A stretch of DNA of 64,000 nt from Liolophura sinensis. Lineage: Eukaryota > Mollusca > Polyplacophora > Chitonida > Chitonidae. Positions 20,245 to 63,475 of this stretch are shown here, in pieces. Location: assembly GCF_032854445.1 (NCBI RefSeq), contig NC_088295.1, positions 80,628,028-80,692,027 of the forward strand, given 5' to 3'. Below the pieces are notes generated by a model. The model saw nothing but the letters and a program-made list of their open reading frames with translations. It had not been told where the DNA came from and did no database searches. The position numbers were made by a program, and so were the translations under genes. Position 1 is the stretch's first letter; every line of letters begins with the position of its first letter.

Positions 20245-20430
20245 AGGAAGCTGCTGTGATTGTGTCAGAGATTACCCTCTGTTTGGAGAATGACGGATAT
20301 TACTCACAGGAGCAGTTCGATAGTGCCTCGCTCAGGTCCTTTGAAACGTCGGAAATCTGAAACTCCTGATGGATTCGTTTTACTCACAGAAGATGAGCCG
20401 TTGGAGCAGGAGAAAAAGGAAAACAATAAT
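20245..20430 (+). CDS. TALE gene coding exon 1 (5' UTR plus residues 1-47)
   Basis: The acceptor CTACTTTCAG ends at 20244. Translation starts at 20290 (GAGAATGAC); an in-frame TGA at 20257-20259 blocks any earlier start in this exon. The encoded 47 residues include a basic RRKS patch after a Pro/Ser-rich start and an acidic EDEPLEQE stretch. The donor GTAAGT is at 20431, phase 0. The last 30 bases are the first unit of a degenerate tandem repeat that continues into the intron. Confidence 0.85.
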
Positions 20431-23400
20431 GTAAGTAAAATTCGGGGGCCGTAGAAAAAGTGAAACTATAACGTTAGTAAAATCATTGAAGCAGAAGAGG
20501 AAGGAAAACAATGTAAGTAAAATCCATGGAGCAGGAGAAACAGAAAAACAATCATTTAGGTAAAAGGAGGAGGCAGGAGAAAAATGTAATTAAGTAATGT
20601 AATTAAAAACTGTGAGGCCGGAGAAAAATGAAAACAAAAGTGTAAGTGAAATCCATGATGCTGGAGGAAAAGGAAAGCAATAATTTAAGAAAAGCCAGGG
20701 ATTTGGCAGTACTCTAAATCCAGATGATAAATTGGGGTATTCTCGGGTATTCGGATATTCGGGTTGACAAGTTGTAAGGAAATAAACAGAAAAGGTAGGT
20801 GAAATGAAGTTAGAAGGGATGTTCTTTCAAAGAATGCTAATTTTGGCCAAGATTGGTTTGAGAAGGAATCATGTTTATTGTACTTCAAACAATTTCATGG
20901 TTTCAGAATAACTGAAAGTAACATGGAGTATACATCCAAATGGAAAGACCATTGGTATAAGACTTAAGTACATACACTTGTTATTGCCCTAAAAGCATTC
21001 ACAAAACTAATTGTGTTCTTGACTGACCAAGTTGTTCAACCAATGACCTTGGCTATGTTGATTTTTGCTGCTTTGAAAAGTTGAAAGTTGCCCCTGTTGA
21101 CAAAATGTGTCATCAAGCCAGAGTACTGATCTCACCCTGGCCTATTGACATTGACTTTGTATGGGTGGGTGGAGAGGAGTGTAGGAGGGAGATGACCCTG
21201 ATGTGTTTTTACAACACCTTAACACATCCTCTGTCAATGTTCCTAGCATGCCAGGCATGGCTCAGGAGGTTTAGCCCTGAAGATCAACTAATACAAGGTT
21301 TGATGCAACAGTTAGGTAATGGAGGCTTCTGCTAGGCTTTATCACCCACAGGAAGTGTGGATAAGAGCAATATCTAAGGCTTCTTAAGATGGCATTAATT
21401 TCTGTAGTGTTGTTGTGCAGTCAAGAGTTAAAGAGTTGTGGAGTAAATAAGGCAATGTGAATGAGTTGTGATTGGAACTGGGTAGATACCTTAGAGAAAC
21501 GATTGGTGAATGACATATGTTGTAACAGACTTTGTTTGTTCTGGGTTTGGTACTCATTCGCTAAGAGAAGAATTTGTGGTGGGGGAGGGGGGAGGAGTGC
21601 AGGCTCCTTGAGTTGGCTTTAGGAGGGGATGTTTGTGGAACAGAACAGTAATTCAGGCCTAATGCTTATTCCCTATTCATCCTAGACTGAACCAGATGAT
21701 GCAAGGAGGTCCAGTGGATTACTGAGCATTGGAACTCCCTTGAGAATGGGTGGGTCGGTATCCAGTTTTAGCCTGATTCCGTCTGACCCACTGGACAATC
21801 ACCCCATATCCTGAACTAGTAACTTGGTCCAACCCTCTTCACTTGTCTAATTCTACTCTAATGAGTTTACTTTAGCCAGGTGCTTTTTCAGTGGCTGGCA
21901 TCCCTCTGTGAAATAGCCAGGAAATTTGGTTGTCAAGGGAACGGGTTGGAGATTAGGGTGTTTAGGAGCATGTAGGCTGGGAAGTTGTGTTTACTTGTGC
22001 TTGTCTACTGACTGGTCTTGCACAGTTAGAAAGGTCACAGCCCTCCTCCCATCAGCAAACATTCCTGCAGACAGTGCCCAGTCAGTGACGACCTTCAGGG
22101 GTGGAGAGGACAATATAGGTCAGCAACAAGTCTCACCAGTTAGCCCTGGGAGAAACACCATTCAAATTATCCACTTGAAAGTTTGATTATCATGTATGTA
22201 CATCCAGATAAAAGAAAATTGCCCCCCCCCCCAACAAATAGGCACTATTCATAGCCAAAACTTTATGTAATGTGAGCTGACTCCCTGATACAGTTATTAA
22301 TAACTTTGTTGATAGGAGTTCTGTGCACAAGGATTATGGTAAGAAAACTCTATACAGGGTTTGTGGTGTGGAATGATCAGATACTTGCACAAGGGAACAA
22401 TCAGGATACACTGTTGAGGCCTCCTATGCCTGCCCCCTTTCAAGCAGGGTTGACTGAGCTATTGTGCATGTTTATTGTGTTCACTTGTGCAATAAGCATG
22501 TACACATGTAGAAAATTTGGGACAGATATTAGTAGTGTTGAATGTAGAATGTTTCATTTCTTTACCAGCCTTTTGGAAAAGTAAAGATATGAGAATGTTG
22601 TTCATTAGATGGTCTAACCATGTGAGAAAAAAGAAAGTCAATATACCTGCAAAAATTGCATATATATTGGCCAAAATGAGCAGACCAGGTGTCGCAAATT
22701 TTGGAAAAAATAGGGTATATATCTACAAGTGAAGGAAGTTTGGCTTACAGCTCTGTTTAAAAGACAGGCTGTTCACTGTTTCAGCTTTTATAGGGCTGTG
22801 TTTTTTATGCCCTCCTGTCAAACTTGCTTGAGTAGGAGTAGCCCTAGGTTCAGGTTGGGAAACCTGACTGTTTTATCTGACATGACATAACCAGGCTCTG
22901 TGTGTATAGCTAGGTCCCCTTAAGTACTCAGGCAAGTGCTGTCAGGTGAAGCTTGCATGGGCTTAGCCCCCAGCTATGCTACTACCTACTGTATTCCTAA
23001 TGTTCTCAACAGGCTCTCCCTTAAACAATACTCACGCAAAGGCCATTGGTGAAGACCTTAGTGTTCCAGGCTGTATTTACCTTGAAATATAACATAAACT
23101 GTCTCTCAGTCTTATTGTTTGGTGGCATTTTTAGTCCCATTTTTTGGCAGCAGAAACATTAGTGTTCAAACCCTCAGTCTGTTCACTAATGGATAGCTTT
23201 ATCTGAAAGGAGTCGCCATTTGCAACTCTGGTGCCACTGAATAGCTCTAAGTCTGGAAAAGTGTTCTTGATAGACTAGTCTGTAATCCAAGGCCTGTCAG
23301 GTCTACTGTTCAGTTGTACTGAGGGACACGTCAATTACCTACAGGCTGTTTGTGACCGAGTCTGGTCCCTGTCGGTCGACTATTGTTCTCTATCAAGACC

Positions 23401-26400
23401 TGGAAGTTGTTATAGGTGAGGGTGAGAGGGTGGGACACACAGCTCTTATCATAATTACTTGTACATGTTGTATGTGCTGAAATTCGGACAGTACAACCAA
23501 TTCTCCTGGTTAGGGTACCGTTGACAATTAATTAACGTGGAGAAAGGCTGCTTCTAGGATATCATTAGAAAATGAACAAAAACCTTGTCAAACCTGTAAA
23601 GTGGCCTTAAATGCTTTGACTGAAAGTTAAATTAAATAGCCAGGGAGAATAATGTAATTGTTTTTAAAAGTTTAGAAATCCTTGTGGAAGTGCTTGTGGC
23701 TCGTAAAGAATAAATACTCAGATATTGGAATGTTTCCATTGGGATGCCTTCTATGTACACATGAAAAGTGTATGATATACTAAATGGTTAAATGCAGCAG
23801 TTTGTGTGATTAAAATTATGTTTTCCAGTGGTAAATTTTCATGTCATGTTGGTTTATATGGGTTTGCCATAGGAAAGTTTTCAGCACTCTCACACCGGAT
23901 TAAAATTTTTACTTTTGAATTTCAAGCAGATTATATTGGCACCCTAGCCATGCTATAAATATGGTAGCTGTCTTGCAGTTTGATGTTTGAATTCTTCCAT
24001 CTGTTAGTGGAGGGGTCAGTGTTTCACAGTAGGGGCCAACATGTGAGTTGGATTTACTCTGCCCCTGTCCCTAGTCCTGAATAAACATACAGAGAATCTG
24101 TAGAGTGGACCCATGGGTCAAGACCATAACCAGGTGGCTAACCACTTGTGTTCTTCGGGCAGTAGACTTTAGTCCTTTGGTCAACGGGTTTGTTCTATTA
24201 AATTTCAGACTCTGGTCAGATTTCAGGGCTGAACTAGAAAATGAATTTGTATTGCTTCCCCCAGCTTATACCCATACTTGGTAGTAACAACTGGGGACTG
24301 TATCTTTTGTCATTCCTTTTATCTGACCATTAAATACAGGTGCATTATATAAGCATGTGTCTGTCACAGGTGATGCAGAGGAATATTACACAAGGCTGAC
24401 ATTCCACATGGGGGTTATTAACAAGAAATCTCTGGTCCTGGTTATATATGCTAAGGAAAGGGCTTTCCTGTAAAGAATTCCATTTAAATACATTTTAAAT
24501 TCAGAAAACCCATCATGTTTTATTCATAATTGAACTCGGAATTATGGAATAAGGGTTGGAGTCTGTGCAGATACTAATTTGCATAGTTTCTTTGATGTAT
24601 GCTGGAAGGTTACAAGATGTGCAGAACAAGGTTTTGTAAGACATAAATAGCCTGTGAGTGCCCCCAGGTGGAGAGAAGAGGATTTACTCAGTCAGCACAG
24701 GTGCAAAGGATAAGCAAGTCCTAAACAAATACTTCCCCTATTACATGGGGGGCTATCCGCCCGAAGCGTTTCTTTACTCTGTCAAATTGGATGCTCATTG
24801 CGCTGCCTCGCTGCCACTGTGCAGCTCAGCACGCAGCTGCTGGCGTAACTTGTTCAAACTGCCTGTTTGTAGGAGACTGTAGCCAAATATTGCTCCACTT
24901 CCTTCCTCAAATGTTGAGGGGCAGAAACGTGTGCATTGTCCCTCCCAGGGGCATTCGTCTTTTCACGAGTTTGCACACAGCCAAGGGCCACGAAGAAACT
25001 CCACTACCAGGAGAAGACAACACAACAGTCAAGTGGGTCGAGAAAATATCAATATGTAGATGACACAATATGTAAATATTGGGGGAACATGATGTCAACA
25101 AGTGCAGTGGGTTCAATCTTTCAGCAAACTGCCATCCTTCCTCCAGGTGGACCAATCAGAACCTTCCAACATGACTGTTATATGGGTTGTACACCAAGAG
25201 ACACAGGACAGCAATACTTCATGGGAAAATTGATATTTGCTCCAACCACAGCATTCTGTTTCTACACACAAAGACTCACTTGAAAATAAAACAACAAAAA
25301 TTACAAGAAAACTCCAGATTATTGTTCAAGTGAGAGTTGTAATGCATGTTGGAAGGCTCTTAAAACAACAGGTTCAACAAACTTTTTCTTCCATTTGATT
25401 GTAGGATGCAAAACCACGCTGAAGTCACATGATGCCTTTTGTATTGTACTATTTGAAAGCTTCGTCAGCTTTCCTTCAGTTTCCTGGAAGTGAATTATGT
25501 ATAGAAAAATGTATGTTTGTCATGGTTACAAACCTGTGTTGAAAATGCTTAAGAAAATATAGAAAACTTTTATGGAGTTTGCACTCAATCATATAATGGT
25601 ACAGAGAAACTGCAATTCAACTTCAAATTCCAACCGATGGCAAAGTGTTAACAAAAAAAGCAGTGCTTCAAATGCTAAAAGTTTTCTTGAACTTCTATCC
25701 GTGTTAGAATTGGACAAACGCCATGATTTCTGTAAGTGTTTGCTTAATCATGTCTGCCAAAGCATAAGATAATCTTTTCACCTTTTTTCTTGAAGAACAG
25801 AGTATTGGAATTTTAGTAAGCATTTTTCTGCTAACAGTGATATAATTTATGCTCTTAACTTCTGTTTTTGTACATGTGACCCTCAGCAGGTATTTTCAGT
25901 GGGTGTGCTATCCTAATGAGCTTGAGGTTGTTTTAGGAAAATGCCATTCCATGGGTGTTGATGACACTAAGGTCTGTTGTAGTTTGACATGAAAATGAAT
26001 GAAGAGCTTCGTTCAAGTTAATAATTTGTGGGGGCCGGTTGTGAAAGTTTAACTCGTTACCTGTGCTTTCGTGCGGAGGGGTGTTTAAATGTTCAGAGGA
26101 CAGCTAAGCTTTGTAACTCAAAACCTAACCATTAGGCTGGTCCTTAGAGGAAATCAAACAAAGACAGCTAGGCCTATTGACCATGTAGCTGAAAGGTTGG
26201 TCTGGGGGCAGCAGAACTGAATGAAAGCTGAGAAGTTGCACAATGGTAGATTTGTGTGAGGGAATCAGACCCTGCCAGGCAAACTAGGAGTCTAGATACC
26301 AGTGCCATTGGGGGCCTGGGGAGAACAGACTGGTACTTTTTAGAGGAATTGGCTGGCGATAAATGGTGCTGTGACTCCACTGATTATTAGGGCTGTAATG

Positions 26401-29400
26401 AAAACCAAACAGTGTTCAGGTAACAGAGTGCACATTCCAATCTCAATGCTTTTATGTCCACCACCTGCTGCTGTTATTATGTAGACCAGCCTGGGACATT
26501 TTCTGACTGTATTCACTGTCCCTAACTTACACAAAATAATGGTTCAGGTAATCAGTGGAACTATTCATTCATGACGGTTGTGATAATGTTTTAATGGCAT
26601 TTGCTGTGTTTTGAAGGGTTGTAGTAGGCAGCAAAATGAATAAAAGCTTTCGTCTCGGTGAGAAAAAGGGAAAGATTGCATAATATTTTTTTTTTAAATC
26701 TTTTATGTATGTGAGCTATTGTTGTATTTTTCAGTTAACAGAGTATCGGGATGCCCCCTCCAGCCCTTCAGCATCGGATGCCACCAATGATTTGTCTCCC
26801 TTTGAGAATTTGGGATCTCCAGGGTCTCCACCACCTTTTAATCCAATCGACAATGAAAGACTTCCAAATGAACTTCTGGATGAAATCTGCTCAGATGTGG
26901 GTTTTAAGGATACCATGGACCTGGACATTGTGGAATTCCTCATGGATCAGGAGGTTCCAACAACCGATGCTGGCCAAATTTGCGATCCTTTCTCAACTGC
27001 CGGTCTCTTTTCAGTCAATGGATGCATGGCCACGCCAACGAAAGGAATTGGAAAGTCTGGTGGGGACCGAGCGTCTAGTCCAGGTCTGCCACCGACTGGG
27101 TATTCGGCCTGCTCCAGTACATCCGGCAGTCCAGTCAGCAAACGGTTCCATGCTGCTCCTCTAAGTTCCCAGTCGAGTCCGCAGAAGGACTGCTCTAGTG
27201 CAAATACATTTAAACTGCCCAAGACACCAAGTAAATCCTGTTCTTCCTCTGATACAAACACAGCCGGTTTCCAGTCGCCAAGTCGTCATCAAACCAGTAT
27301 TGACAACAATTTGATTAGCACTCCGTCCAAAACAGGGAACCATGCTGGATTATGCCATGACTCAGCAAACCACCACCACCATCAACAACAACAACCAGGA
27401 CAACAACAACAGCAGCACCCACAGATGCCCTCAGATGGTCATCTGCATACAGGCCAACACGGTCATCACCACATACAGCCCCCTCACGGGACAGTCTCGG
27501 CTGCCACCAGGTGCTGCAGTCCTTCCTCTGGAGCGCCTCCTCCCTTACATCATCTGGGCCCACGCCACCCAATGCAACAAGGACAGAACCTTCAAAATCC
27601 TCAGGGGTCAATGGTGCGTCCCTCTCCTCAACGAATGCCTCAGGGTTATCCACAAAGCCCGGGATACAAAAAGATGGGTCGTCCCTCTCCTCCAGTGGTG
27701 AATGTTCTCAATATGCCACAGTCACAAAACATGCCCCAGACTCAGAATTCAAGGTGGATGAACAACAACAACAACAACTGCCAAGCTTCTATGCAGCAAC
27801 ACCCGTATCATGACATGAATCAAAATAAGTATGATCAAGGGAAACTGGGTTTTTATAACAACCCTAACGCAGCTTCGCAGTACATGAGCCAGCAGGGCAG
27901 AACGTTGGACTCTCCATTAGACCAGGGTTACTTCTCTGGAGATACGGCATCTGTCAGAAGTTTCTCATCATCGTCATCGTCTACTGGCACCACAGTTATG
28001 TGTGGCGGTGTGACAGGCGGCAAGGGGCATATGATGAGGCGAGCCATGGGCTCAAACCCTGCCCTCAATCAGTATATGCCTCAAGCACAGCACCCACAGG
28101 AGATGAACATCTATAGGGCTGCCCAGGGTGGTATGGGTCCTAATGGTGGCATGGGACCAAATGGTGGCTTCCCACAGCAACAACAACAACAACAGCAGCA
28201 GCAGCAACATCAGTTTGGTAATGAGTGTGACTATTTTGGAAAGACTGAACCCAATGATCAGGCTTATCCTGGACAGATGGGTCAGATGTGTCGTCCCCAG
28301 GGCAATCCTCAGGTGAACAGACCCTACCCTTCACCAGGGGTGAACAGTACAAACTGCTTTGACAACAGTTTCAACCCTGTTGGGAATTTTGAAACGGACT
28401 TCAATGACAATGAACAAAAATCCATATCTACCAAAATCTTACCACGTTGTTCACCTTATGTGAAGTCTGACGTGGCACCTTATACTGTGCCTTGCAACAA
28501 TGGGCAAACTGTGGCAAACCCTTATGACATTAGGAATAATCCTGGTGTGCAGAATGGTGGAATACCTCAGCAGGCTGGTGGTCACAATATGGAAATTGCT
28601 CCCAACACAAACTATGACAACTGTAGGCCAGTTCCTGACATGCAGAACCCTAATATGTCAATGATGTCCTCCATGGAAGGTTCCAATATGCATATCCCTC
28701 AATCCATGCCCTCTCCAGCAAGAGGGTACGCATTGAACTCCAATAACTCTACTTCTATGCAAATGCCTCCACAAACTCAGGGGGCTTGTGACTCTCCTAT
28801 GCACTATGGTAACAGATCCATGCAGCAAGGCAGTGCTATGGACCCATCTTTCGTAGGACAAATGTCGAACATGCAGATGCCTGCCACCCCTCAAGCCAGT
28901 AGTTGTAGTGGGGGTATGGGTGTTCAGCAGCCAAACATGACTTCTACGCCCCACCCAGGGCATCACATGTCTACTATGTGCTCAGGAGGGGGATCTCAAT
29001 ACCCTGTGTCTAACAATCCCATGGGTGGGGTTGGCAATCAGTCTTGGCAACAAGGAAACAATATGGCTCCTCAGCCAATGGGGCAGGGCTATGGCAAACC
29101 TCAGGGTATGTGTGCCCAGGGCATGTCTCAGCCCATGGGACAAGGGCCAGTCCCTAATGGTGCGCCCCCTCCTGGTCATATGTGTGGGCCAAACTGTAAC
29201 TGTAAGAATGCAGCAAGACGACCCCCAGTGATATCATCCCAGCAGTCCTTCATCCAGCATTTGATAACAGACAGGTCCAATGCATTCCGATCACATCCAT
29301 TGTTCCCCCTTCTGCGTGATCTCATTATTGCTGATATGAACTTCAACTCCCCGTCCTTCCCCTATCAGCTCATAAGAAATCTACCTGCTGATTTTGACAA

Positions 29401-32400
29401 ACTATTGCAGAACTTCTTACAAAGAAACCCTCCAAATGGGAGTTATCAAAACAACTACGCAGTGGAAAGTGTTATTATGGATGCCTTAAAATATGCCCAC
29501 CAGTGCCTTATAGGTAAGAAGTGCACCTTGTTTGTGCTTTTCTGCATTTGGACACCTATGGTGCCTTATAGGTAAGAAGTGCACCTTGTTTGTGCTTTTC
29601 TGCATTTGGACACCTATGGTGCCTTATAGGTAAGAAGTGCACCTTGTTTGTGCTTTTCTGCATTTGGACACCTATGGTGCATTTTGATAATTAAGTGATG
29701 TAATATTATGCTTGCAGGATGAAGTGGAAATGTTGTTCTGAATATGTATTTAACTGTGGTGACCATGGCTAAATTTCAGATGTGAGGAGTTCATCCCTGC
29801 ATGTTGTTTGTAATGTGCAGTGTTTTTTAAGTGTTACTCTTCATTAGAGAAGTTAGTCTGCATAAGTATTTCATTAAATCAGTCATTCAGGACATTAAAT
29901 TGTCTTGACAGGAAGAAAGGAAAATCTGTTATTTGTTATGTCCTAATGGGTACTGAGCCATAAAACTAGTCCACAAAATGCACTTTCTGTGTTTCAATAA
30001 ACTTAACCAGGCGATATACAGGTTATCTGTGTTTAGACATCTTCAGGAAGGATGAGTTTTTTTCTTTGAAAAGTCATGAATGATTTTTCTTGAAATGCAG
30101 TGGAGAGTACTTTTGATAATGACAGATGTAACTGATTCATGAAATAATTGTGACACTAAATATTTTTATTGTTTGATGATGACCTAAGTTTAGTTTTATT
30201 CATTTGTTCAAGTGCCTTATAGCATTACCTTTAAGGTAGGGAATAACCTGGGGTGGCCTTGCGTGCTAGGCCCTGTGTTGTTTCCCCTCAGTGAGTCAGT
30301 ACATTAGGTTCCCCGACTCCTCCCCCATACCATGCCTTCAGGGCCAGGACAAAGATTTATGCACAGATTAACAGGATAGGATTTAGGGGTGCATCCAATT
30401 AAGACTGATGTATAAAAAAGTCAGGTGATTTACTGTTTGTTAGATTGGAGATGTCAGCTCGGTGCACATGGCTCTAAGCGCATGCACTCAGCACTTTGGC
30501 TGCAGTGTGCTTGACTTGTTCTTCTAAGTGGAACTCTTTTCTTCTGTCCGTGGTATAACTTTACATTAACACTAGGCCATACTATTTCCAGCCTTGGCTA
30601 AAAAAATGAGACTCCAAAAAATTAAGTGAACAGAGAGTGTAAGAGGCATATTGTTTACATAAAATGTAAGCTATAGCCGGCAGGGGTCAGGGAAGAGGGC
30701 TGGATCAGTTTCTGCCCCAGTCCAGACTGTGGAAACCAGCAAGCCAGGCTGACAGTTTCCTTGGTCTACTGCTGATCTATACTGACTACCCAGATGTAGA
30801 TAGCTGAAAATACAGATTACCATATGGTGCCAACGGTTGCCTTTTTTTACCACATTGTAAACATCCAAAAGAATTGCATTGTTGTGCCCCACCCTGAGTT
30901 TGGTATTTATACTTCAGGGGGTGGGAAAACTGGTATATCTATTAAAATACCATGTTGAGGACATGTTTTAACAATTACAATGAAAAAAAAATTTCATTCA
31001 AATCAGCCCAACAGACTCTTGCTCTTTTTGACATAGCAAGTTTTGAGTGGATGAAGCTACACATTTTTATCATTGCTGCAATCATGCCATTATTGTGTGG
31101 AATCACCAACTATATTTAGAATTATGATCGGTATGTGTTCTAGGGTAAATAGACAAATCTTTTGCTTGTAGGTTATGAAAGGTTGTTTGGTTCACAGTTA
31201 GATAAATTAGCAAAATAGTTGAGGAAAGCTAGAGTTATTATTAAATTTTGACTTGCCCCAAGCTTTAGATTAAGTTGCTGCATTTTATTTTTGAGTTACA
31301 ATCATGAATTTTAAAATTATGATGGATTTGTCTTGTCTAAATAGTGTAACTCGTAAACAATTAAACATGTGGGGGTGAAGAAAGTATTCAGACCACATGT
31401 CACAAAGGTAACTTTTAAAGTTATCCCCAAACATGAAGTCCATATTCTGGATGAAATGTTGTGCTTGTAATGTGTGTGATTGGCCTGAAAGCATGAAAAA
31501 TGGCAACCATTGTATGTGGAGCCTCAAATTAGCACAAGGGCAGAATATGTGTACTCATAGCTATTAATGCCATTGTTGAAAGAGGAACAGTTTTGAATGT
31601 GTTGTGCATCCAGGAAACTTTACAGCTCAATATTATGTGTTTTTCCTGTGTTTTTGTATATTACTACATATTTCTCATAGGCAATGAAAATTGTTGTAAG
31701 TAAATGCCCAATTGTTATCAGTTCAGCAAAAGATGCTAACTGTTTGCATAAACAGTGTATATGTATTTATAAAATAACATCTGTTTTCAAGGTAAATGTT
31801 ATATTTAACATGTGTGAAATTTATCAAAGCTTTTGGTTGACTTTTTAAAATCGAAGCTGGTATATCTTCAACCAGTAATCATTTTTATGTTGTGTTATGT
31901 AGTTCATTTGTAAAAGTCAGCAAGTTTTTCTAAATCATGGTTGATAATCATCAATAATCAGTATATGATATTCATATATACGTGATCTGCATAAGATTAG
32001 CAATGCAGGTCTGTGTTCAGCATCATACAAAATACCCAGGTAGTTGTCATCTTTATTTAATACACATGTACAGGAGTGTTTGGCTTAATTATAATCTCTC
32101 TGTTTCTTTTTTTTTTTTCAGAGAAAATTAAAGTTAGACAAGAACAAGACAAACACACAAAGACCACGTCAAAATCTCTAAGTGCTATTGAAGAGTTTTG
32201 TGAGAAGTTTGATCGGGCTGTGAGAAACAGTATGAGTAAGGTAAGAACATGATGACCTTTCTCTGAGCCTGCAAGTTAGCCTTGACTAAAAAGAAAAAAA
32301 ACCTAAAATAATGCACAGATATCAACTCCTTGTTGTCCATTCTTTAATTATTTATGCATGATATGGATAATTAACTACGGTACTAACATGGTCTTTGAAA

Positions 32401-35400
32401 TGGAATCATTGAAACAGTGAAATATTATAAATTTGATTTTGGGATAAAGTTTATAGGGAAAGTTGTGAAGTCCACAGATTGCTCAAGGCTTGTAGGAAAC
32501 TGATGGTAACTTGAGTTCTCATGAAGTAAATCCCACAGGTGTGGACAAATGGATATAATGTAAACTGTGGAATGAGATCTGGTGTTTTATCACTATTGTT
32601 TACATCAACTAATCCCATAAATAAATTTGACTTTTCAACAGCCAGAGCATCCAGCTGCAGGTAACCATGGTGATATGGGTGTTGTGAACCCCATGATGAA
32701 TGGAGGTCAAGGGTCAGGTGTTGTTCCTTTACCAGGAGGTGCTGCAGGCATGTCAGCCCAGGACCATAAACACTCGATGGAGGTAAGACCTATGACTCTT
32801 CACCTTTGACCCGACTCTAACATATCACTGGTGCAGGATCAGGGTTAGATCATTATTACTTCACATAGCTATGTAGGCCATTAGTTCAGTTTACTTGATA
32901 TTTCTTACCAGACGGCCTTTATCTATTTTTGTGACACTTTGGAGAAGTATTTTGTAAGATAAGCTCATTCAACACAAGCTTAGGCTTACCCCAAGCTCAG
33001 GGAAACTGTATCCCGCCCTGGAGTCTCTTATGGCAAATCCAAGACACCTCTGCCACCAACCCTTATGAAGTTGTCAAACTGTTGGAAATCATATTCAACA
33101 CACATCTTTCAGTCAGAAAATTTAGTAGTCATTCAGAAGGGAAGTTATAATCTCATCACACCACACATTACAGGATGATTTTCCAGTTGCACAACGTGAG
33201 GAATTTCAAAATGAGGTGTTATTTAAATGCTGTCAGGCAATGCCATGAACACCTAGACTGCTTTGTCATTAAGACCATATATTGGCTGGCCAGGTGTAGT
33301 TTTGAATACAGGCAGCAAGTAAATCACTCAATCTTATGCTGCCTTTGTGCACTGGCTTAAGATGTAGTCTGTAGTGACACCTTTTCAGGAAATACACACA
33401 TCTAGTTTATCCTTTGTCATCAGATTTGTGATGACTGACCACTTTTTCATTTTTGAAAATGGTTCTGAAGTATAGAAGCAGAGTGCAGAGGTAGTTTTTT
33501 CTCGGAGTAGTGATGGTACTGTGTGCTGTGTTAAACTGCTCAGTGGTAATCACAGTATTGGCCTACAGACTTTTTTTATATAACCTTTTACTCTGTAAAA
33601 ACTATTAATTGTAGGGAGTGGAAAAGTGGGGGCGCTAAGAAAGTTTGTTGTGCAAAAGAGGTTGTGTGCTTCCTGTGGTAGTGTGTCATTGCATTGGCTA
33701 AAGTCTTCTTCATTTAAGGAAGCCAAATAATTGCAGTTGTTACGGCTGTGAAATTCTAGATGGTGTCCCCTCTTGTGTAGAGATAATGACAGGATAAGAA
33801 GGGTGTACATGTAGGTAGTTGGGACTGGAAGCAGCCCCTGGGAAGGCTCATTCATTGCCATGGTACATAACCCAGGGGTTAAAACCAGTCACAGAGGGTC
33901 AGGTTTTTCTGCTAACATCTGGGTGAAATCTACACCAACCCAACTCTACAGGGCCTGTTTGCTTTGAAAACTTAAACTGCTTCTTTTCCACTCAGGGTGG
34001 CTTGTAAACTATAATATAATATAGGCATCTTGTTAAGAGCTGCTAATTTTTGTGAAAGCTGGTCAGAAAAAATGCAGTGATATTTGGGGTGGATAGTAAC
34101 TATGTTGTTAGGGGAATGAAATGCTAGGGTAGGTGGCTAAGGTTGGGTGGATGAGCCCATGGTCTGGGTATTAAGCTGGGTCTGGTCCCACTCCCTCCCA
34201 CCTCCTGTCCCCCTAACAAAGGCCCAGCACTCACCAACAATATCCACAGCTGTGCCTCCACCAGTTTTCTACCTCAGCCTGACTGAGTTTAAATGGACAG
34301 AATGCCTAGCTTTATTTGCGGTGGCAGGAGTGGTTATTCGGAACAATAGACTCTGACCATTCAATATATTATCATTGAGAGCATGCACACGGACAGTCTA
34401 ACTCCCTACTTTAACGTAGAGTGGACATTTAGTGCTATATCTGGCAAAAAGGTCTTGTCGTTTTTTACCAGGGGACTCTCCAGAATTGCTCATTTGTAGT
34501 GATTCTCCATTATAAAGTGCTTTTCTGTGTGTTGCCCTTGTGAAGGATTGTGTATCATGTGTTTGCGGCCATTAATTTTTGTGTGTAAATAATCAATACA
34601 TTGTGTTAATTGAAGTAATGCTTAGCCAGCCACTGATAAGCACACATGTTCTGGATACAATTTCAGCCGTGTACAAGCTTAGTTGATTATGTGGGCACTA
34701 AACCACACCTGGCATGCAGGGAAATCAATAAAACGAAATTTGCTGACGGCTTGTTGCGAAAGTGAATGTAGCATACTGGAAGTTTACTGTTCACTGTTAT
34801 TACAAATCTGTAGAGCATTAATTCAATTTATTGGAGTAAATGTGCCAGAAGGTATGTTAAGGCAATGTATACGAGTCCAGTTCTTCCCTCCTAACAGCTC
34901 AACCCATGCCTACAACACAGAATTCATGGAACTGGCTACCTGCAATACTCTCTTTAACCCCTAATATACATGTCATATAAAATTCAGGTAATATTTGCTG
35001 TTGCAGATGTCATTGCATTGCACTTCTCATTCTTCCATTATAATTCTGGGATAATTTGTCGGTATGGTTATCTAGCAAAGCATTTGGCTTCCCTGTGTTC
35101 TAACTGGGTTTCTCTAAGTGTAAATCTGTAAATTGTCTGAACAGACTAAATGATATTTTAGTAATAGATGTCTGTGTAAATGCATCCTTAGCCATGGTTC
35201 ACCTGTATGGTTTTCCCCTCAACAGATGCCGCCTCCGACTGGCTACCTAAGCTCCCCGATGAAGAAGATGGATCATATGGGGGGTATGATGTCACACTTC
35301 CATGTGCTGCGAGATTTGCCTGACTCTGCTAGTGAATCAGGTTCTTCCATCAGTAGCACATCGTGCCACAACAAAACAGAATCCAAGAAACACCCAAGTC

Positions 35401-36100
35401 TACCCAAAGAGGTGTGTAATTTGCACAGTGTGTAGTACTATTTGTACTCTATGAGGGGTCATGTTTCAGTGTTGTTAATTTGAGCTCTTTATAGTGTGAG
35501 AGTAGTGGTCTGAAGTTATAGTGTAATAAGTCTAGTCCAGGTTAATAGGAATTTGATCATATTAAACAGAGGAATGCCACATTGTTGTTATGTATATATG
35601 AACTTATGTTTTCGATGTTTTCAGAAACTTAAAAGACTTGTAAAGAATAGCAATTATTATTTTTGGCAACAAACCACACTTTGTTTTATTTTAACATTTT
35701 TCAATTTTATTGAAACATTGATACAGTTGTACAGGTACTGCAACTTAAAAGTCAATCATTGGTCCACACCAGGCAAGGTTCTCACATCAACATCTGCCCT
35801 AACCTTTAGCACATGCACTGTGACATTTTCTTTTATCTTGTGTCACTAGTATACATATTTTAATGGAGTTTTATATTAAACTGGTTTGTATGGCACTCCA
35901 AATGACAGAAACTTTCTTTGTTTCAGGCTGTTGCCATGATGTTGGACTGGTTAAGGAACCACAAAGACAACCCTTACCCTAATGATGATGAGAAGGCAAT
36001 GCTAATCAAACAAACAGGACTTACCATCAATCAAATCAACTACTGGTTCACAAATGCCCGCAGGAGGATTTTACCAAAATGGGCACAGGCCAAAACTTAG
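20290..36100 (+). CDS. MEIS-like TALE homeodomain protein with giant disordered N-terminus (6 coding exons, 1,179 aa)
   Basis: Probable nuclear DNA-binding transcription regulator. Coding exons: 20290-20430, 26735-29513, 32122-32240, 32642-32782, 35226-35411, 35927-36100. Every junction is GT-AG and the phases fit (0,1,0,0,0). The ATG has A at -3 and an in-frame stop 31 bases upstream in the same exon. Order of parts: basic PLKRRKS near residue 17; acidic/hydrophobic activation-like segment 92-120; a Met/Gln/Asn/Pro-rich region to about 860 with polyQ, polyN and His runs; a Cys motif at 864-870; MEIS-A-like HPLFPLL at 901-907; MEIS-B-like helix 957-1013; TALE homeodomain about 1110-1173 with the PYP insertion (1138-1140) and WFTNARRR (1162-1169). 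MEIS, PREP and TGIF proteins are usually 250-500 aa, so this is far longer. Lophotrochozoans are known for extra divergent TALE genes; I cannot tell which clade this belongs to. Confidence 0.88.
20401..20690 (+). repeat. Degenerate ~42-bp tandem repeat spanning the exon 1 donor
   Basis: Units begin near 20401, 20443, 20486, 20528, 20567, 20611 and 20656. Each has the form G(A/G)GCAGGAGAAAA...AAACAAT followed in several units by GTAAGTAAAATCCAT. Intact GTAAGT occurs at 20431, 20513 and 20642, so the 5' splice site was copied with the repeat. Only the first donor is usable for the long protein, because read-through hits TAG at 20452-20454. Confidence 0.8.
20431..26734 (+). other. Intron between coding exons 1 and 2 (6.3 kb)
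   Basis: Bounded by GTAAGT at 20431 and TTGTATTTTTCAG ending at 26734. CpG-poor and without SINE copies. A poly(C) tract sits near 22223-22233. A patch at 24.74-24.86 kb keeps more CpG and GC than its surroundings. The open frames at 24658-25283 have no domain and no consistent splice bounds. Confidence 0.7.
26735..29513 (+). CDS. TALE gene coding exon 2 (residues 48-973)
   Basis: A 2,779-bp exon, unusually long for an internal exon. It carries almost the whole low-complexity region: an activation-like DLDIVEFLM segment near its start, His/Gln runs around 27360-27420, NNNN codons near 27765, the polyQ tract at about 28177-28210, repeated GGMGPN units, many Met-Pro-Gln/Asn motifs, the CGPNCNC motif at 29183, then the MEIS-A-like HPLFPLL and the start of the second MEIS helix. 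It ends phase 1 at the first of three identical donors. Confidence 0.9.
28177..28211 (+). repeat. CAA/CAG polyglutamine tract in exon 2
   Basis: Mixed CAA and CAG codons encode an uninterrupted run of about 11 Gln followed by His-Gln. Similar shorter CAA runs lie near 27380-27415 and Asn AAC runs near 27763-27778. Mixed codons make the tract less prone to slippage than pure CAG. Confidence 0.9.
29503..29676 (+). repeat. Three perfect 58-bp tandem copies spanning the exon 2 donor
   Basis: Copies at 29503-29560, 29561-29618 and 29619-29676 are identical. Each contains CTTATAG followed by GTAAGAAG, so the donor of coding exon 2 is present three times (GT at 29514, 29572, 29630). A unit of 58 bp is not a multiple of three, and read-through meets TAA at 29573-29575. 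Only the first donor gives the long protein; use of the second gives a stop three codons into coding exon 3. Confidence 0.95.
29514..32121 (+). other. Intron between coding exons 2 and 3 (2.6 kb)
   Basis: It starts with the donor array and ends at a long T-rich acceptor (T12CAG) at 32121. No SINE or other element is recognised. CpG-poor like the rest of the gene. Confidence 0.75.
32122..32240 (+). CDS. TALE gene coding exon 3 (residues 974-1013)
   Basis: 119 bp, phase 1 in and phase 0 out (donor GTAAGA at 32241). Joined to exon 2 it gives a continuous helix, [12 protein letters not shown], and then the motif [10 protein letters not shown]. This aligns with the second half of the MEIS/KNOX domain, where MEIS proteins have a similar FCHRYI segment. 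The MEIS half-domains bind PBC-class partners in known proteins; partner binding here is inference. Confidence 0.85.
32642..32782 (+). CDS. TALE gene coding exon 4 (residues 1014-1060), Gly/Met linker
   Basis: 141 bp, phase 0 at both ends, acceptor TTTTCAACAG and donor GTAAGA at 32783. It encodes a Gly/Met/Pro-rich linker with no domain. As a symmetric exon it could be skipped without changing frame. Confidence 0.82.
32783..35225 (+). other. Intron between coding exons 4 and 5 (2.4 kb)
   Basis: Bounded by GTAAGA and CCCCTCAACAG. No repeat family or gene recognised. Open frames at 33550-33861, 34147-34356 and 34683-34964 lack splice support. Confidence 0.75.
35226..35411 (+). CDS. TALE gene coding exon 5 (residues 1061-1122)
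   Basis: 186 bp, phase 0 at both ends, donor GTGTGT at 35412. It encodes a Met-rich start, a Ser-rich stretch (SESGSSISS), a basic KKHPSLPKE end and hence the N-terminal arm of the homeodomain. LPKE is the conserved start of the TALE homeodomain (compare LPKE in MEIS and TGIF), so an intron falls just after it. Confidence 0.85.
35927..36100 (+). CDS. TALE gene coding exon 6 (residues 1123-1179), homeodomain core and stop
   Basis: Acceptor TTGTTTCAG ends at 35926; stop TAG at 36098-36100. It encodes helix 1 (MMLDWLRNH), the TALE-specific NPYP loop, and the recognition helix WFTNARRR followed by ILPKW. The protein ends ten residues after the RRR, with no C-terminal tail. Homeodomain positions 47 and 50 are Tyr and Thr, against Asn and Ile in MEIS and PREP. 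Confidence 0.92.
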
Positions 36101-40599: not shown

Positions 40600-42013
40600 C
40601 TAACCGTGTAACGTTTGGGCGTTCATCCCATCAAATGTATGTTTCTTGCCCATTCGGATACCGTGCCTCAGGTCAGGGGCGGACTCGTGGAATGTCTGGT
40701 GAAAAGTGCTGTGGACGCGGCTCTTACTGAAGCTTTCCTGGAGTTTCAGTAGGGTGGTTTGTGGTCGAGGTTTCCCACAGCCAGGCTGCCATTTGAACCG
40801 TGGGTCCTCGTCTTTTCTTAAGTCGTACGCAGGAAACTGGTTACTGTAAGCGGTCGATTCCGTCACGCTCGCTGTAAGATTCGTTGGCGCGAAGTTCGTT
40901 GACAGACTGGCGAATTCATTTCGGGGGCGTCCTTGAGCTGAAATTGGACGAGGATTGGAGAATCGAACTACAGCCGACGAACATGGCATGGTTTTCTCTC
41001 TCCTGACCATGTCCGTTATTCCGGGGACAGGCACGATCACATTAGAAACATGGCATTCGTTTTCACGCTTCCACTGGGCATGTCGGCTTGTGTACTGTAT
41101 GGTATTGGGTTGCCCCGTCCTGCTAACTGGCCTCGCGGGAAGGGACTGTCTTAGGTCGTCTGCAAAGCGAACAGTTTTGAGATCCGCTTTGAGAGAGGCT
41201 GTCAGACGGACATTGTCCAGGTTTTGGTTTTCGTTACTCATGAGGCAAGCAGGGTCATTCCTGGCATACTTTGGTAAGTCATACTCTTGGAGGAATTTGG
41301 GCACATCGTAGCAGTCTCCTTTGGTACTCTCTGTCAGAATTGTCTCCCCTTCCTGGACTTTCACTCTGCAGTTCTTTGTGGAAGGCTGTAGCCATTCTTT
41401 TTGAGAGTGTTTTTGCTTCGCCAGAGAGGTTAGTGGGGAGAACTCTTCACCTGGTGATCTATCAGGAATTGTGACACTCTCGTGAAGATCGTCCCGCATC
41501 TGGGCGTTCAGATCGCTGGGTACACTGATCGCGTCAACGTGAGAGAACATAGTATTCATGATTTCAGGACCTGACGTCTCTAGGTGATTCATAGAATGGT
41601 AAAGGCGATAAGGATCGAAACTGGTCTTGTACAAACCCGCTCTTTCTTCATTAAACTTTCCCTCGTGCTCATAAAAGGTCTTGGGTTTATCGCCATCGTT
41701 AACGTGACTGTACTTTACATTTAATAGTTCGATGTCATGTTTCGGTGTCTGGTTCTCTAGAACTTTCCATCGATTCTGAGCCTCGATCTGTTGGAACCGC
41801 TGGGCTTGATCTTGTTTAAATTTATCTAAGTAGTTAACAGGTTCTTCCTCTTGAGGTTGGTAGCATTTTACCATTGAATTGCGTTGAGACAACGATGCGC
41901 ATTCAGACGGCTGTTTTGTTGTCAGTGCCCCCTCAGATGTCGTTATAGGCAGGTTAATGTATTCCTTGCCGTTCAACAGGCGGTCCTCCTCTATCTCATT
42001 CAGTGTCATTTTT
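40600..42013 (-). CDS. SPMIP4 exon 8 (residues 299-769, last exon)
   Basis: A 1,414-bp exon after acceptor CCCTCCCTAG, ending at TAG (40602-40600). Most is poorly conserved hydrophilic sequence, but the last 55 residues carry the family C-terminal block (TTLLKLQESFSKS, then DLRHGIRMGKKHTF). Open frames on the plus strand across this exon (40955-41474) are shadows. Confidence 0.88.
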
Positions 42014-43580
42014 CTAGGGAGGGAGGCAAACGAGAAAAAATCATTTGAACGTATTCAAACAGGAATCCCAGTCAGGCTATGCTCTTTTGACAACGTTGCT
42101 GATAATCTCTATAGTGTCGTGTACATATGTAGTATTACTGGCTTCCTCTCCGGCCATACGTGGTAAGGTCTGTTATCAACCTGCGGATGGTCGTGGGTTT
42201 TCCCCGGGCTCTGACCGGTTTCCTACCACCCGTAATGCTTTCCGCCGTCGTATAAGTGAAATATTCTTGAGTACGGCGTAAAACACCAATCAAATAAATA
42301 AGTATACAATATAATGCCAGTAAGAATAACTAACATTCTAAAAAATTCCGATAAAGATAGTTGAAACTCTGGAAAATTATGAATAACATTTTGTAAGTTT
42401 ACTGAAAGTATTTGGTATTTCTCTAAAAAAAATCTGATTGGAATTGATATTGCATGGTATTTTGGACTGTGAATCCTTTTGCAATAGAAGTTACCCCATA
42501 GTTGGGTATAGGGGGATTTTAACGCAAGACTAGTCAAACAACTAAAATAAAACCCTTAACAAGGCTAACCTTTCACTGGGCATTTCCGTTTCCGCTTGCT
42601 TGCCCTGTGGCTTAGGAAGACAGCTTAGTTGTCTGGCTATGCGACCTTCCATCGGACGAGGTGCGACGAACGTGTTGGTGGACCTAGGATACTGTCAACA
42701 GGTACGAAGACGATATTGAATAGTTGGCTACGTATATAAGTCTTAGCTTTGGTTCTGTTTTGCTCACAACTATATGATTCTTTATATGATAGGGGTTTAG
42801 CGTTGTAACAAAGAATATTTCACTCATGTGATAAAAATAAGGTTTAAGTGTTGAAACGGACAAACATTGTTATTTCAGTAAATGAAATAAGCCAGTGAGG
42901 GCCTATTACTTAAATATTGCTTTATATTCAAACATCATAGTTTAAATGTCGTTCTGAGGGCTGCTCCATTATTGACATTTCTCAAAAATTTGAAAAAAAA
43001 AATGACTAACATTGCCCCGAATTCTTAAGTTTTATCGGAATGAAGTCATACAAACATTTGTTTCTTCTCTGCAAGCGTTATTTCAATAGTGACAAGGATT
43101 TGAAAACTTCCATCTACAAAGTGCCAAATGGGTTCATGGGATGTACACAGATATTTACACAGTCAACGAAGAGAACTGCCCTTCTGTATATAAGGTATGT
43201 TTTAAGCTGGGCTGAAAACTTCAAATCAGGCGTAAGCCCTTCGAAAAGGCCTCACCAGATTATCGTCTTCTGTGCCGTCTGTCTTGAACTTCTCCATCTT
43301 CTCCTTGTAGTTGTCAAGGCTCATAGGATTAGCGTCGCCGAGCCCTGTGTGAGCCAGATCGTAGCTGGTTTGCCATTGGCTACGCTCCACGTTCCGAAGA
43401 GTGTTGGCCGTGCGTTCTGAGATCTTCATTTCCACTGGTCGATCTTGTAAGTTCGGGGCCACAAGTTTTGGCGGATAAGGGTAGTAGCTCTGCCTCCCGC
43501 CATGTGTCTTAACGAGCTGACGGAGACAAAGACGAATACGTATTATTAAAATATTATATTTATTACTCTGGATATCAAAA

Positions 43581-43622
<42 letters not shown>

Positions 43623-47896: not shown

Positions 47897-48978
47897 GTGC
47901 TTGGGATATGCCTCATTTGCGACAGGACTAGGTATACATACAAAGACGGGATTGGGAAGCATCTCATTTGCGGCAGGTTCAAGTAGGCATACAAAGACGA
48001 GATCAGGATGTATCTCACATTGGGCAGGTTCAGGTATGCAAACAAAGACGGGCTTGGATATGTCTCACATTTCACAGGTTGAGGTATACATACAAAGCCG
48101 GTCTCGGGGTGTGTCTCATACGCATCCGGGCAGGTAGCGGTGTACAGATAAAGCCGGCCTCGAGATATGTCTCACGTGACAGGTTTTAGGTATTCATACA
48201 AAGCCGAGCTCTGAATGTGTCTCACATGGGCAAGTTGAGGTATGTATATAAAACTGGGCTCGGGATGCGTCTCACGTGCGATAGGTTGAGGTATACATAC
48301 AAAGTTTGGCTCGGGATGTGTGTCAGGAGCCACTGGTTGAGATATGCATACAAAACCGGGCTCGGGATGCGTGTCACATGCCACAGGTGGAGATATACAT
48401 ACAAAGCCGAGCTCTGGAAATGTCTCAAATGCCACAGGTTTAGGTATGCGTACAAAACCGGGCTCGGGATGCGTCTCACGTGCGACAGGTTGAGGTTTAC
48501 ATACAAAGTTTGGCTCGGGATGCGTGTCAGGAGCCACTGGTTGAGATATGCATACAAAGCCGGGCTCGGGATGCGTGTCACATGCCACAGGTGGAGATAT
48601 ACATACAAAGCCGAGCTCTGGAAATGTCTCAAATGCCACAGGTTTAGGTATGCATACAAAGCCGTTAGGGATGCGTGTCACATACCACAGGTTGAGGTTT
48701 ACATACAAAGTTAGGCTCGGGATGCGTGTCAGGAGCCACTGGTTGAAATATGCATACAAAGCCGGGCTCGGGATGCGTGTCACATGCCACAGGTGGAGGT
48801 ATACATACAAAGCCGAGCTCTGGAAGTGTCTCAAATTCCACAGGTTTAGGTATGCGTACAAAGCCGGGCTCGGGATGCGTGTCACATGCGACAAGCTCAG
48901 GTATGCATACAAAGCCGTTAGGGATGCGTGTCACATACCACAGGTTGAGGTATACATACAAAGCCCGGCTCGGGATTG
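47897..48978. repeat. 51-bp minisatellite (about 21 units) with a 204-bp higher-order period
   Basis: Basic unit of 51 bp with the core CATACAAAGCCGGGCTCGGG and GTGTCACATGCCACAGG. In the central part four unit types recur every 204 bp (for example TATGCATACA at 48343 and 48547). Near 48660 and 48915 units lose 2 bp (CCGTTAGGG for CCGGGCTCGGG), shifting frame. Because 51 is divisible by three and the unit is stop-free, several frames on both strands stay open for up to 246 codons with a 17-residue period; I do not regard these as genes. Confidence 0.93.
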
Positions 48979-49678: not shown

Positions 49679-49975
49679 GTAAGTTCAGTAAGGTATACAG
49701 TAAATTCCTTGCCGATATAGGATGCTATACCCTTCAGAAAAAGTTAAGGAAAAGTACATCATAATAAACACATGTTCAGTACTGGTGATGTCTACATTGG
49801 CAGTGAAATAGTTGAACATGCATGCATTTAGGTACATTTGTGGTTTACAATAGCAATATAAAAATACATTTCACCTTCCCATCCCAAACTAGAATTATAC
49901 TTTACAGTAATAACCCAGCTAAATTGCACTCTAGATCAAAAACGTCAAATTTTTTGTTCAAACGAGGCACCCTTC

Positions 49976-50300
49976 ACACATCCATACGGGCATCCTAGAC
50001 ACATCCATACGGGCATCCTAGACACATCCATACGGGCATCCTAGACACATCCATACGGGCACGCTACACACATCCATAAGGGCATCCTACACACATCCAT
50101 ACGGGCACGCTACACACATCCATACGGGCACCCTACACACATCCATACGGGCATCCTACACACATCCATACGGGCACCCTACACACATTCATACGGGCAC
50201 CCTACACACATCCATACGGGCACGCTACACACATCCATACGGGCACCCTACCCACATCCATACGGGTACCCCACACACATCCATAGGGGCATCCTACACA
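49976..50300. repeat. 23-bp minisatellite, about 14 copies
   Basis: Unit CACATCCATACGGGCATCCTA plus two bases, with variant units reading CACGCTACA or CACCCTACA. The array is nearly perfect over 325 bp, then decays into CATCCA/CATTCA-rich sequence to about 50560. It would lie in the first intron of the gene starting at 49577, if that gene is real. Confidence 0.95.
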
Positions 50301-51600
50301 CTTTTATTTTGGCATGCATCCATTCATTTATCCTTCCTACAGACATTCATCAAGGTTTATCCTTCAAGCATCCACATCCATCATAGATTCATAGAAACGT
50401 ACGTCCATCAAATAACATACATCGTACACACTCCCATTCTACAGACGTTCATTCGTTCATCCTACACACACACATTCATAAATTATATCCACAATACACA
50501 TAATTTTTCCCCCATGGTAAGACATACTTCCATCCTACCGACACCCATAAGTTAATCTTGCAAATATTCATCCGTTGATAGCACTATAGGCCGAAGTATC
50601 GACTACGACTTCAGATGTTCTAATTTCGCTACACTGGGTGTGTGGAGAACCGGCGTCTCCGGGTGGCGGGTGTTTATCAGACCCGGACGGAAACCAGTGA
50701 CATATAGTTACATCTGACCGACCAGTTAGCTCTGGTCCTTGGAGAGAAGTAGAAGAGCTGAAGAGTACCCTGGGGTTGGAGGCTATTGAGGAACTGATTG
50801 ACGTGGAGGACCGCTGCTGGCACCTGATGAGGGCTCTTGTGCGTCCTTGGTTAGGTCACGGGTCAAGCAAGGACGTAGCTGGAAGAGATTCCGGTTTTCC
50901 GGCCACACAATGCGGAGCTCTACTGTGGCTGAAAATAACCTTCCAAGATCCATCTTCTGTTTACCAGACTGCCTCAGCGTCGGGAATTTTGCAGCCGACT
51001 TGAGGTGCTGAGCCTGGGAAGACCGAAAACAAGAAATAAAATACAGATTTATTTTCGGATCGCATGCTATGTGGGAATCCATAACACACATCCAGTGCAG
51101 TGTTGATTATTTAAATAACAACTAGCGATGAAACGATTTCTAGAAATACGGGTCCGTTTTATTCTTCTATGCTTTCACACTTTGGTGAGCCCCCCTTGTG
51201 TATAACATAACGCCCACGTAACCACATCAGCTATACTCAGAACATCTACACATAACTACACCTTGGTGGGAAGTTTTCCAGGAACCAACTTATGGGATAA
51301 ACTTAAGGGGAGAGTTACTGGCGAGAAAATATAAAATGCACATCACAATAAAGGATTGTTATTTCTTGATTGAATTTTGTCCAAAGAAATAAAATAGTGG
51401 GTGTTACAAGGACAAAACTGAAATTTTGATATACAAAAATACTTTATCAGTTAAGATCCTGTTCCCGGGCATCCCAGGTTTATCCTTGATATATACCTAA
51501 TTCTTCGACCATCAGACAGTTCAGAGTTGCCATTCCAATGACAGTCCAGTGCGCCACGCCAAGCCTTCATCGATCAGTTTTATTATACCCCTGTTTTCCT
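50301..51600. other. Unresolved region with overlapping open frames
   Basis: A plus-strand frame at 50701-51003 (101 codons) and a minus-strand frame at 51091-50783 overlap. The minus frame follows an acceptor-like GGTCTTCCCAG at about 51026-51016. Neither matches a protein I know. It may be an old mobile-element remnant or a real exon. The flanks are AT-rich. Confidence 0.3.
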
Positions 51601-62649: not shown

Positions 62650-63475
62650 AGGAGATCTCTGACTGGGACTTCTCCACTCTTTATACTATAATTCCTCACA
62701 CAGATGTAATTGACAGAATTTCATTTCATGAATTTCAAATTTGTCACCGCTGCATTAACGCCAGTGGCAACAAAGCCTTCTTCAGTTCAACTAAATACAT
62801 GGGTTACCATTCATGGAATGTTTCGTTGTTCATGGAGTTGCTTGAGTTTCTCATTAATAACATATATGTGAAATTCGGGGAAACCATATTTCAACAGTGT
62901 ATAGGTATTCCGATAGGTACCAATTGTGTGCCCCCTTATGGCTGACCTATACCTATTCTCGTATGAACACGTTTATATGCAGAAACTATTAAGGAGTAAG
63001 TCGAACCATGCCCGATCTTTCCCATTTACCAAATTATATTGATGATCTGCTAGCTTTAAACAATCAATATATTGCAAAGGCTGTGAAAGATATATATCCA
63101 CCTTCACCTGATTTACAGGAAACCACAGCCTCTCCAAATGGTATATCTTTCCTCTGTCGCAGACTGTGCGACAAGAGGGATACTTTCAAATTTGGCATGG
63201 TAAATTAACCTTACTTGGACAGTAATATGCCGAAAGATCCTCCATATGGCGTGTACATATCTCGCCTTGTAGGATCTGTTAGATCCTGTGTGTTATGTGA
63301 CGATTTCAATCAACGTCACAAGTTATTACTGCAAAAACTTGTGTGTCATGGTTATTCCTCCAAACTCTTTCACTCTAAGTTTTACAGTGAGTATAATTCT
63401 CTTGTCAGTGAATGTGGACAGAGCGTTCAGAATCTCTGGCACTGCTTCATGATTGTGTCTAATTCCGCTTAACCC
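62650..63475 (+). pseudogene. Broken reverse transcriptase of a retroelement (YIDD box)
   Basis: The order FSTLYT, INNIYVKFG, IGIPIGTNC, then YIDD at 63035-63046, LCDKRDTF and PYGVYISRLV matches the RT domain of a retroelement common in marine invertebrates, possibly Penelope-like; I am not sure of the class. The frame breaks in a C5 run at 62930-62934 (stop at 62943), again just before YIDD, and after 63205 (stop at 63206-63208), and a stretch before LCDKRD is deleted. It is a dead fragment without visible endonuclease or ends. Confidence 0.8.

Follow-up and report, generated by a model that had tools for sequence, protein, structure and literature searches.

The 64-kb window, by which we mean the whole stretch of DNA analysed here, contains a gene that we read, with a probability of about 55%, as intact and as encoding a non-canonical TALE transcription factor of the spiralian type, possibly a member of the published TALE-I clade, that would act through the mechanism proposed below as the best explanation of its features. 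The gene lies on contig C1 of the 609-Mb genome of Liolophura sinensis. Its unbroken frame of 1,179 aa is assembled from six coding exons on the plus strand (20290-36100; CDS of 3,540 nt including the stop, no internal stop), laid out as follows.

20290..20430, plus strand: coding exon 1 for aa 1-47, with the start codon ATG at 20290; placed from sequence signals
26735..29513, plus strand: coding exon 2 for aa 48-973 and one further base; holds the long S/P/Q/G/N/M-rich region, followed by the beginning of the MEIS-like segment
26846..26986, plus strand: acidic-hydrophobic patch, aa 85-131; candidate activation motif of putative function
29294..29513, plus strand: exon-2 part of the MEIS-like segment; HR1-like HPLFPLL at aa 901, HR2-like stretch to aa 973
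29503..29680, plus strand: 58-bp unit in 3.1 perfect copies; the exon-2 splice donor is present three times
32122..32240, plus strand: coding exon 3 for aa 974-1013, in which the MEIS-like segment may end (AIEEFCEKF)
32642..32782, plus strand: coding exon 4, linker
35226..35411, plus strand: coding exon 5, linker followed by the homeodomain's N-terminal arm (SLPKE)
35927..36100, plus strand: coding exon 6, remainder of the TALE homeodomain (Y47, T50) and stop

Each of the five introns has GT-AG ends, and the exon junction phases are 0, 1, 0, 0 and 0; the six-exon, 1,179-residue model of the initial annotation thus holds as a predicted in-phase frame free of internal stops. The frame containing exon 2 runs for 963 codons without a stop, 926 of them within the exon; among 50 simulated 64-kb sequences that share the dinucleotide make-up of the region, the maximum is 394 codons. 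The length of the exon-2 open frame is far beyond chance. A start at 20290, in an exon with a short 5'UTR, agrees with two upstream signals, an in-frame TGA (20257-20259) and, before it, an acceptor-like TTTCAG that ends at 20244; exon 1, including this 5'UTR, probably begins at 20245. At the end of exon 2, each of the three perfect 58-bp copies contains TATAG/GTAAGAAG. The products predicted from donors 2 and 3 (29571 and 29629), of 995 and 993 residues, would be devoid of the homeodomain, and the triplication could yield homeodomain-less proteins. In Drosophila, homeodomain-less forms of Hth are known. Alternatively, the long protein might be an artefact of the model, with exon 2 in one gene or transcript and the homeodomain exons in another: the exon-2 frame is able to terminate alone at 29575, the three identical splice donors might lead preferentially to proteins lacking the homeodomain, and the MEIS-like match barely extends past the exon 2/3 junction. 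We consider such a split quite improbable, since the junctions are all in phase and GT-AG, the joined frame has no stop, and MEIS proteins are expected to have just this order, a MEIS-like segment followed directly by a TALE homeodomain.

The C-terminal TALE homeodomain proposed initially was recovered clearly. Pfam Homeobox_KN matches the C-terminal end of the protein with 64.1 bits (E 1.1e-17), the closest solved chains in the PDB comparison are those of TGIF1, TGIF2LX and PKNOX1 (E about 1e-15), and no internal gaps are needed to align the domain with those of other TALE proteins; the three extra loop-1 residues of the superclass are present. It carries the unusual residues H5, Y47 and T50, of which Y47 and T50 occur in no other row of our tree (n=20). 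The MEIS and TGIF classes of Drosophila have R5 and I50 (PMC4901127), instead of which H5 and T50 are found here. DNA preference of TALE proteins is set by positions 47, 50 and 54, and a 48(2/3) homeodomain intron is a MEIS-class trait (PMC6219170). In the same genome, this intron is seen on both sides in Pknox and on the donor side in Meis; it is absent from the window gene, the last exon of which runs through codon 48 and the sole homeodomain intron of which follows LPKE. Four residue strings from the homeodomain had no match in a text search of a limited set of papers.

The remaining TALE complement of the genome was located as well: Meis (C6), Pknox (C1), Pbx (C13), Tgif (C14), Irx at four places (C9), Mkx (C4) and several SPILE-type genes, with names assigned by eye and the Meis and Pknox domains also confirmed by Pfam. 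The window gene is an extra TALE gene, separate from Meis, Pknox and Tgif, all three of which lie elsewhere, and from Pbx, Irx and Mkx. Our tree was built from 20 homeodomains: three are human, and the other 17, with the window gene among them, come from this genome. Out of 56 homeobox matches in the genome, 16 entered the tree directly and one row stood for 28 of a tandem array; the 12 omitted were an array-like copy (L012), six Six-type matches and five others that were non-TALE by eye or unread. The window gene groups with MEIS/PREP and TGIF at 85/83, a value below our mark for good support, and is placed inside neither: both the TGIF clade (three rows, 96/87) and the MEIS/PREP clade (92/93, just below the mark) exclude it. 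A 96/91 branch separates it from Pbx and from five SPILE-type rows, and an unclassified row on a very long branch (C6_49M) falls on its side. It lies within neither the SPILE group nor the TGIF class, and no well-supported set in the tree includes it. The placement beside MEIS/PREP and TGIF, in neither, thus has moderate support.

Several features would suit a fast-evolving duplicate of Tgif or Pknox rather than an old separate lineage: LPKE and RRRILP are common to the window gene and Tgif, HPLFPLL is common to it and Pknox, homeodomain identity is 47.6% to both Tgif and Pknox of this genome and 50% to human PKNOX1 and the own Meis, and the moderately supported placement comes with an end branch of 0.86. 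Even so, we regard a duplicate as unlikely, because the gene falls outside both the TGIF and the MEIS/PREP clades, its homeodomain is unsplit at codon 48, where that of Pknox is split, and TGIF proteins are not known to have a MEIS domain.

The segment upstream of the homeodomain had been described as a divergent MEIS-like domain, a description for which the signal is weak: hhalign scores the segment above all 200 shuffles, and Pfam does not find the domain. The MEIS/PKNOX N-terminal domain, PF16493, gave no match to the segment at E<=10; the own Meis and Pknox domains match it with 183.6 and 141.2 bits. Against a two-sequence Meis/Pknox HMMER profile, the segment obtained 6.5 bits; of 2,000 shuffles, five did better and one equalled it. 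The full-length protein does not appear among the 20 matches listed for this profile. With hhalign, the segment matched the own Meis/Pknox with a score of 26.0 (E 6e-4, probability 29-30%) over 78 columns, and none of 200 shuffles reached this score, the best attaining 20.8. The match extends past the exon 2/3 junction by about five residues, and the rest of exon 3, with AIEEFCEKF, aligned at -1.8 bits in HMMER. PREP1 contacts PBX through L63, L66, L67 and L70 of HR1 and through I122, L125, L129 and L132 of HR2, and HR2 is described as fundamental to the binding of PBC-B (PMC7545097). We transferred this numbering to the own Pknox by residue spacing and took the register of the window gene from hhalign. 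All four HR1 positions are kept (L903, L906, L907, L910), as against two of four in HR2 (L965, A968, L972, K975); since sliding the HR2 register by up to four residues gives 0 to 3 of 4 contacts, the latter figure is no better than that of neighbouring registers. HPLFPLL itself arises in 2 of 200,000 shuffles of the segment. It follows from these counts that the first helix is kept and that the second is degraded or not recognisable. The AlphaFold model of aa 876-973 has a pLDDT of 56.6, too poor for a structure search, and the best PDB match to the MEIS-like domain (E 0.35) is unrelated.

SPILE proteins are extra spiralian TALEs with a roughly 90-aa (PADRE) domain ahead of the homeodomain (PMC8524836), and aa 881-1015 might be such a domain and not MEIS, with a partner left unspecified. 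hhalign aligns the segment to three own SPILE rows, in which the PADRE identity was judged by eye, with a score of 21.6 that none of 200 shuffles equalled, although the best reached 21.1; moreover, the segment begins with RSHPLF and two own SPILE-type frames begin their domain with similar [SN]PMF-like letters (SSHPMF and RSNPMF). The own Meis/Pknox and SPILE domains do not match each other by hhalign (10.0). We find a PADRE identity rather unlikely: the SPILE match covers 31 columns, compared with 78 for the higher-scoring Meis/Pknox match, and the window homeodomain falls outside the SPILE-type rows of the tree. SPILE homeodomains, unlike that of the window gene, have A50 and an N-K-R-x-R motif.

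Most of exon 2 encodes a long N-terminal region of biased composition. The low-complexity stretch of roughly 750 residues noted in the initial annotation is present and slightly longer, at about 810 residues (aa ~60-870, by eye); aa 61-800 consist of 11.5% S, 11.1% P, 10.5% Q, 10.0% G, 8.6% N and 5.9% M. The two labels attached to this stretch did not stand. By the usual threshold of 30 Q+N in 80 residues it is not prion-like, the maximum being 28, and none of 1,100 windows reaches 30. Mastermind proteins are marked by an N-terminal MamL-1 domain; the 1,179-aa protein gave no Pfam match to a Mastermind domain at E<=1, and the likeness does not go beyond composition. Two of the three Q runs of at least four residues mix CAA and CAG, the third is pure CAA, and the N run is pure AAC. 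The acidic-hydrophobic patch was found by an ad hoc window rule of our own, as one run of windows only. The N-terminal 143 aa had a best E of 0.47 against the PDB, and a search of viral contigs for relatives gave two pattern matches, none of them confirmed.

Lophotrochozoan-specific TALE clades have been described by Paps et al. 2015 (PMC5322547) and Barton-Owen et al. 2018 (PMC6118893), and one of these published spiralian clades is the likely home of the window gene. TALE-I, with a clade support of 99% (PMC5322547), has members in Lottia, Patella, two oysters, Lingula and annelids (PMC6118893), and its oyster member TALE2 (Cgi_TALE2) is expressed from egg to blastula (PMC5322547, PMC6118893). 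Assignment to TALE-I is a guess that we somewhat favour, TALE-XIII and TALE-XIV being the alternatives. Like the window gene, TALE-I is a non-canonical spiralian TALE outside the canonical families; compared by description, it differs in that no large companion domain is reported for it (PMC5322547). The MEIS/PREP class (Meis, Pknox/Prep, Hth) has a TALE homeodomain in common with the window gene, the upstream MEIS-like segment of which keeps the HR1 contacts. By contrast, the window gene has no Pfam MEIS match, half of the HR2 contacts, H5/T50 in place of R5/I50, no codon-48 homeodomain intron and a far longer N-terminus. TGIF resembles it in LPKE and RRRILP and in supplying the best solved homeodomain matches, and the own Tgif (L001) likewise has no intron inside codon 48; H5, Y47 and T50 set the window gene apart from TGIF, which is not known to have a MEIS-like segment or a long N-terminus.

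Read as a non-canonical spiralian TALE factor, the protein would bind DNA through its homeodomain, presumably at a TALE-type core with a preference altered owing to H5, Y47 and T50. The MEIS-like segment may be a worn form of the module by which its relatives pair with their partners. We infer binding to a PBC partner from the intact HR1 contacts, the HR2 contacts being half lost: the HR1-like helix would still dock on a PBC protein (Pbx/Exd), though, owing to the loss in HR2, less tightly than Meis/Prep does. The patch at aa 85-131, displayed by a disordered N-terminus, could recruit co-activators. Such a protein would be an activator competing with or diverting Meis/Pknox/Tgif complexes, plausibly in embryos; spiralian TALE genes have been linked to early blastomere specification (PMC8524836). 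More speculatively, and in our estimate doubtfully, the gene might be an intermediate that has survived as a fourth lineage within the MEIS/PREP and TGIF group, with a domain linking the canonical MEINOX domain to the SPILE PADRE; the TALE radiation of spiral cleavage would then carry a degraded PBC-docking module, and the donor triplication would be a switch to homeodomain-less activators. The literature examined in part here gave no account of the origin of the N-terminal domains in spiralian TALEs. An intact HR1 with a worn HR2 and PADRE-like edges would make the Pbx pairing of such spiralian factors testable, and the size of the protein would show a TALE factor bearing its own large activation region.

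Further observations concern other TALE genes of the genome. In the tandem array on C5 (1098499-1163070), SPILE-type TALE homeobox matches number 28 within 64.7 kb, with a usual spacing of about 2,276 bp and frames of up to 338 aa; one frame has a stop within the homeodomain, and the four copies at the start of the array (L010) are nearly identical. Lottia is reported to have eight near-identical tandem SPILE-type genes (PMC8524836). The own Meis (C6, 66.09 Mb) has two adjoining near-identical homeodomain exons, HPYPSEEQ and HPYPTEEQ, a candidate mutually exclusive pair. On C3, at 5.22 Mb, a single 637-aa frame carries two TALE homeodomains and matches the description of TALE-IV/SPILE-B. The SPILE-type genes, including this frame and the array, would by themselves suggest a spiralian, probably a mollusc.

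Elsewhere in the window, a SPMIP4-like gene on the minus strand (40603-43582; frame 43229-43582, E 1e-13) is convergent with the TALE gene, and a 483-aa frame near it had no Pfam match at E<=0.1. Minisatellites with 51-bp and 23-bp units (47930-48976 and 49966-50301, respectively) produce spurious long frames, and a 97-aa frame at 62652-62942 resembles, by eye, a decayed reverse transcriptase.
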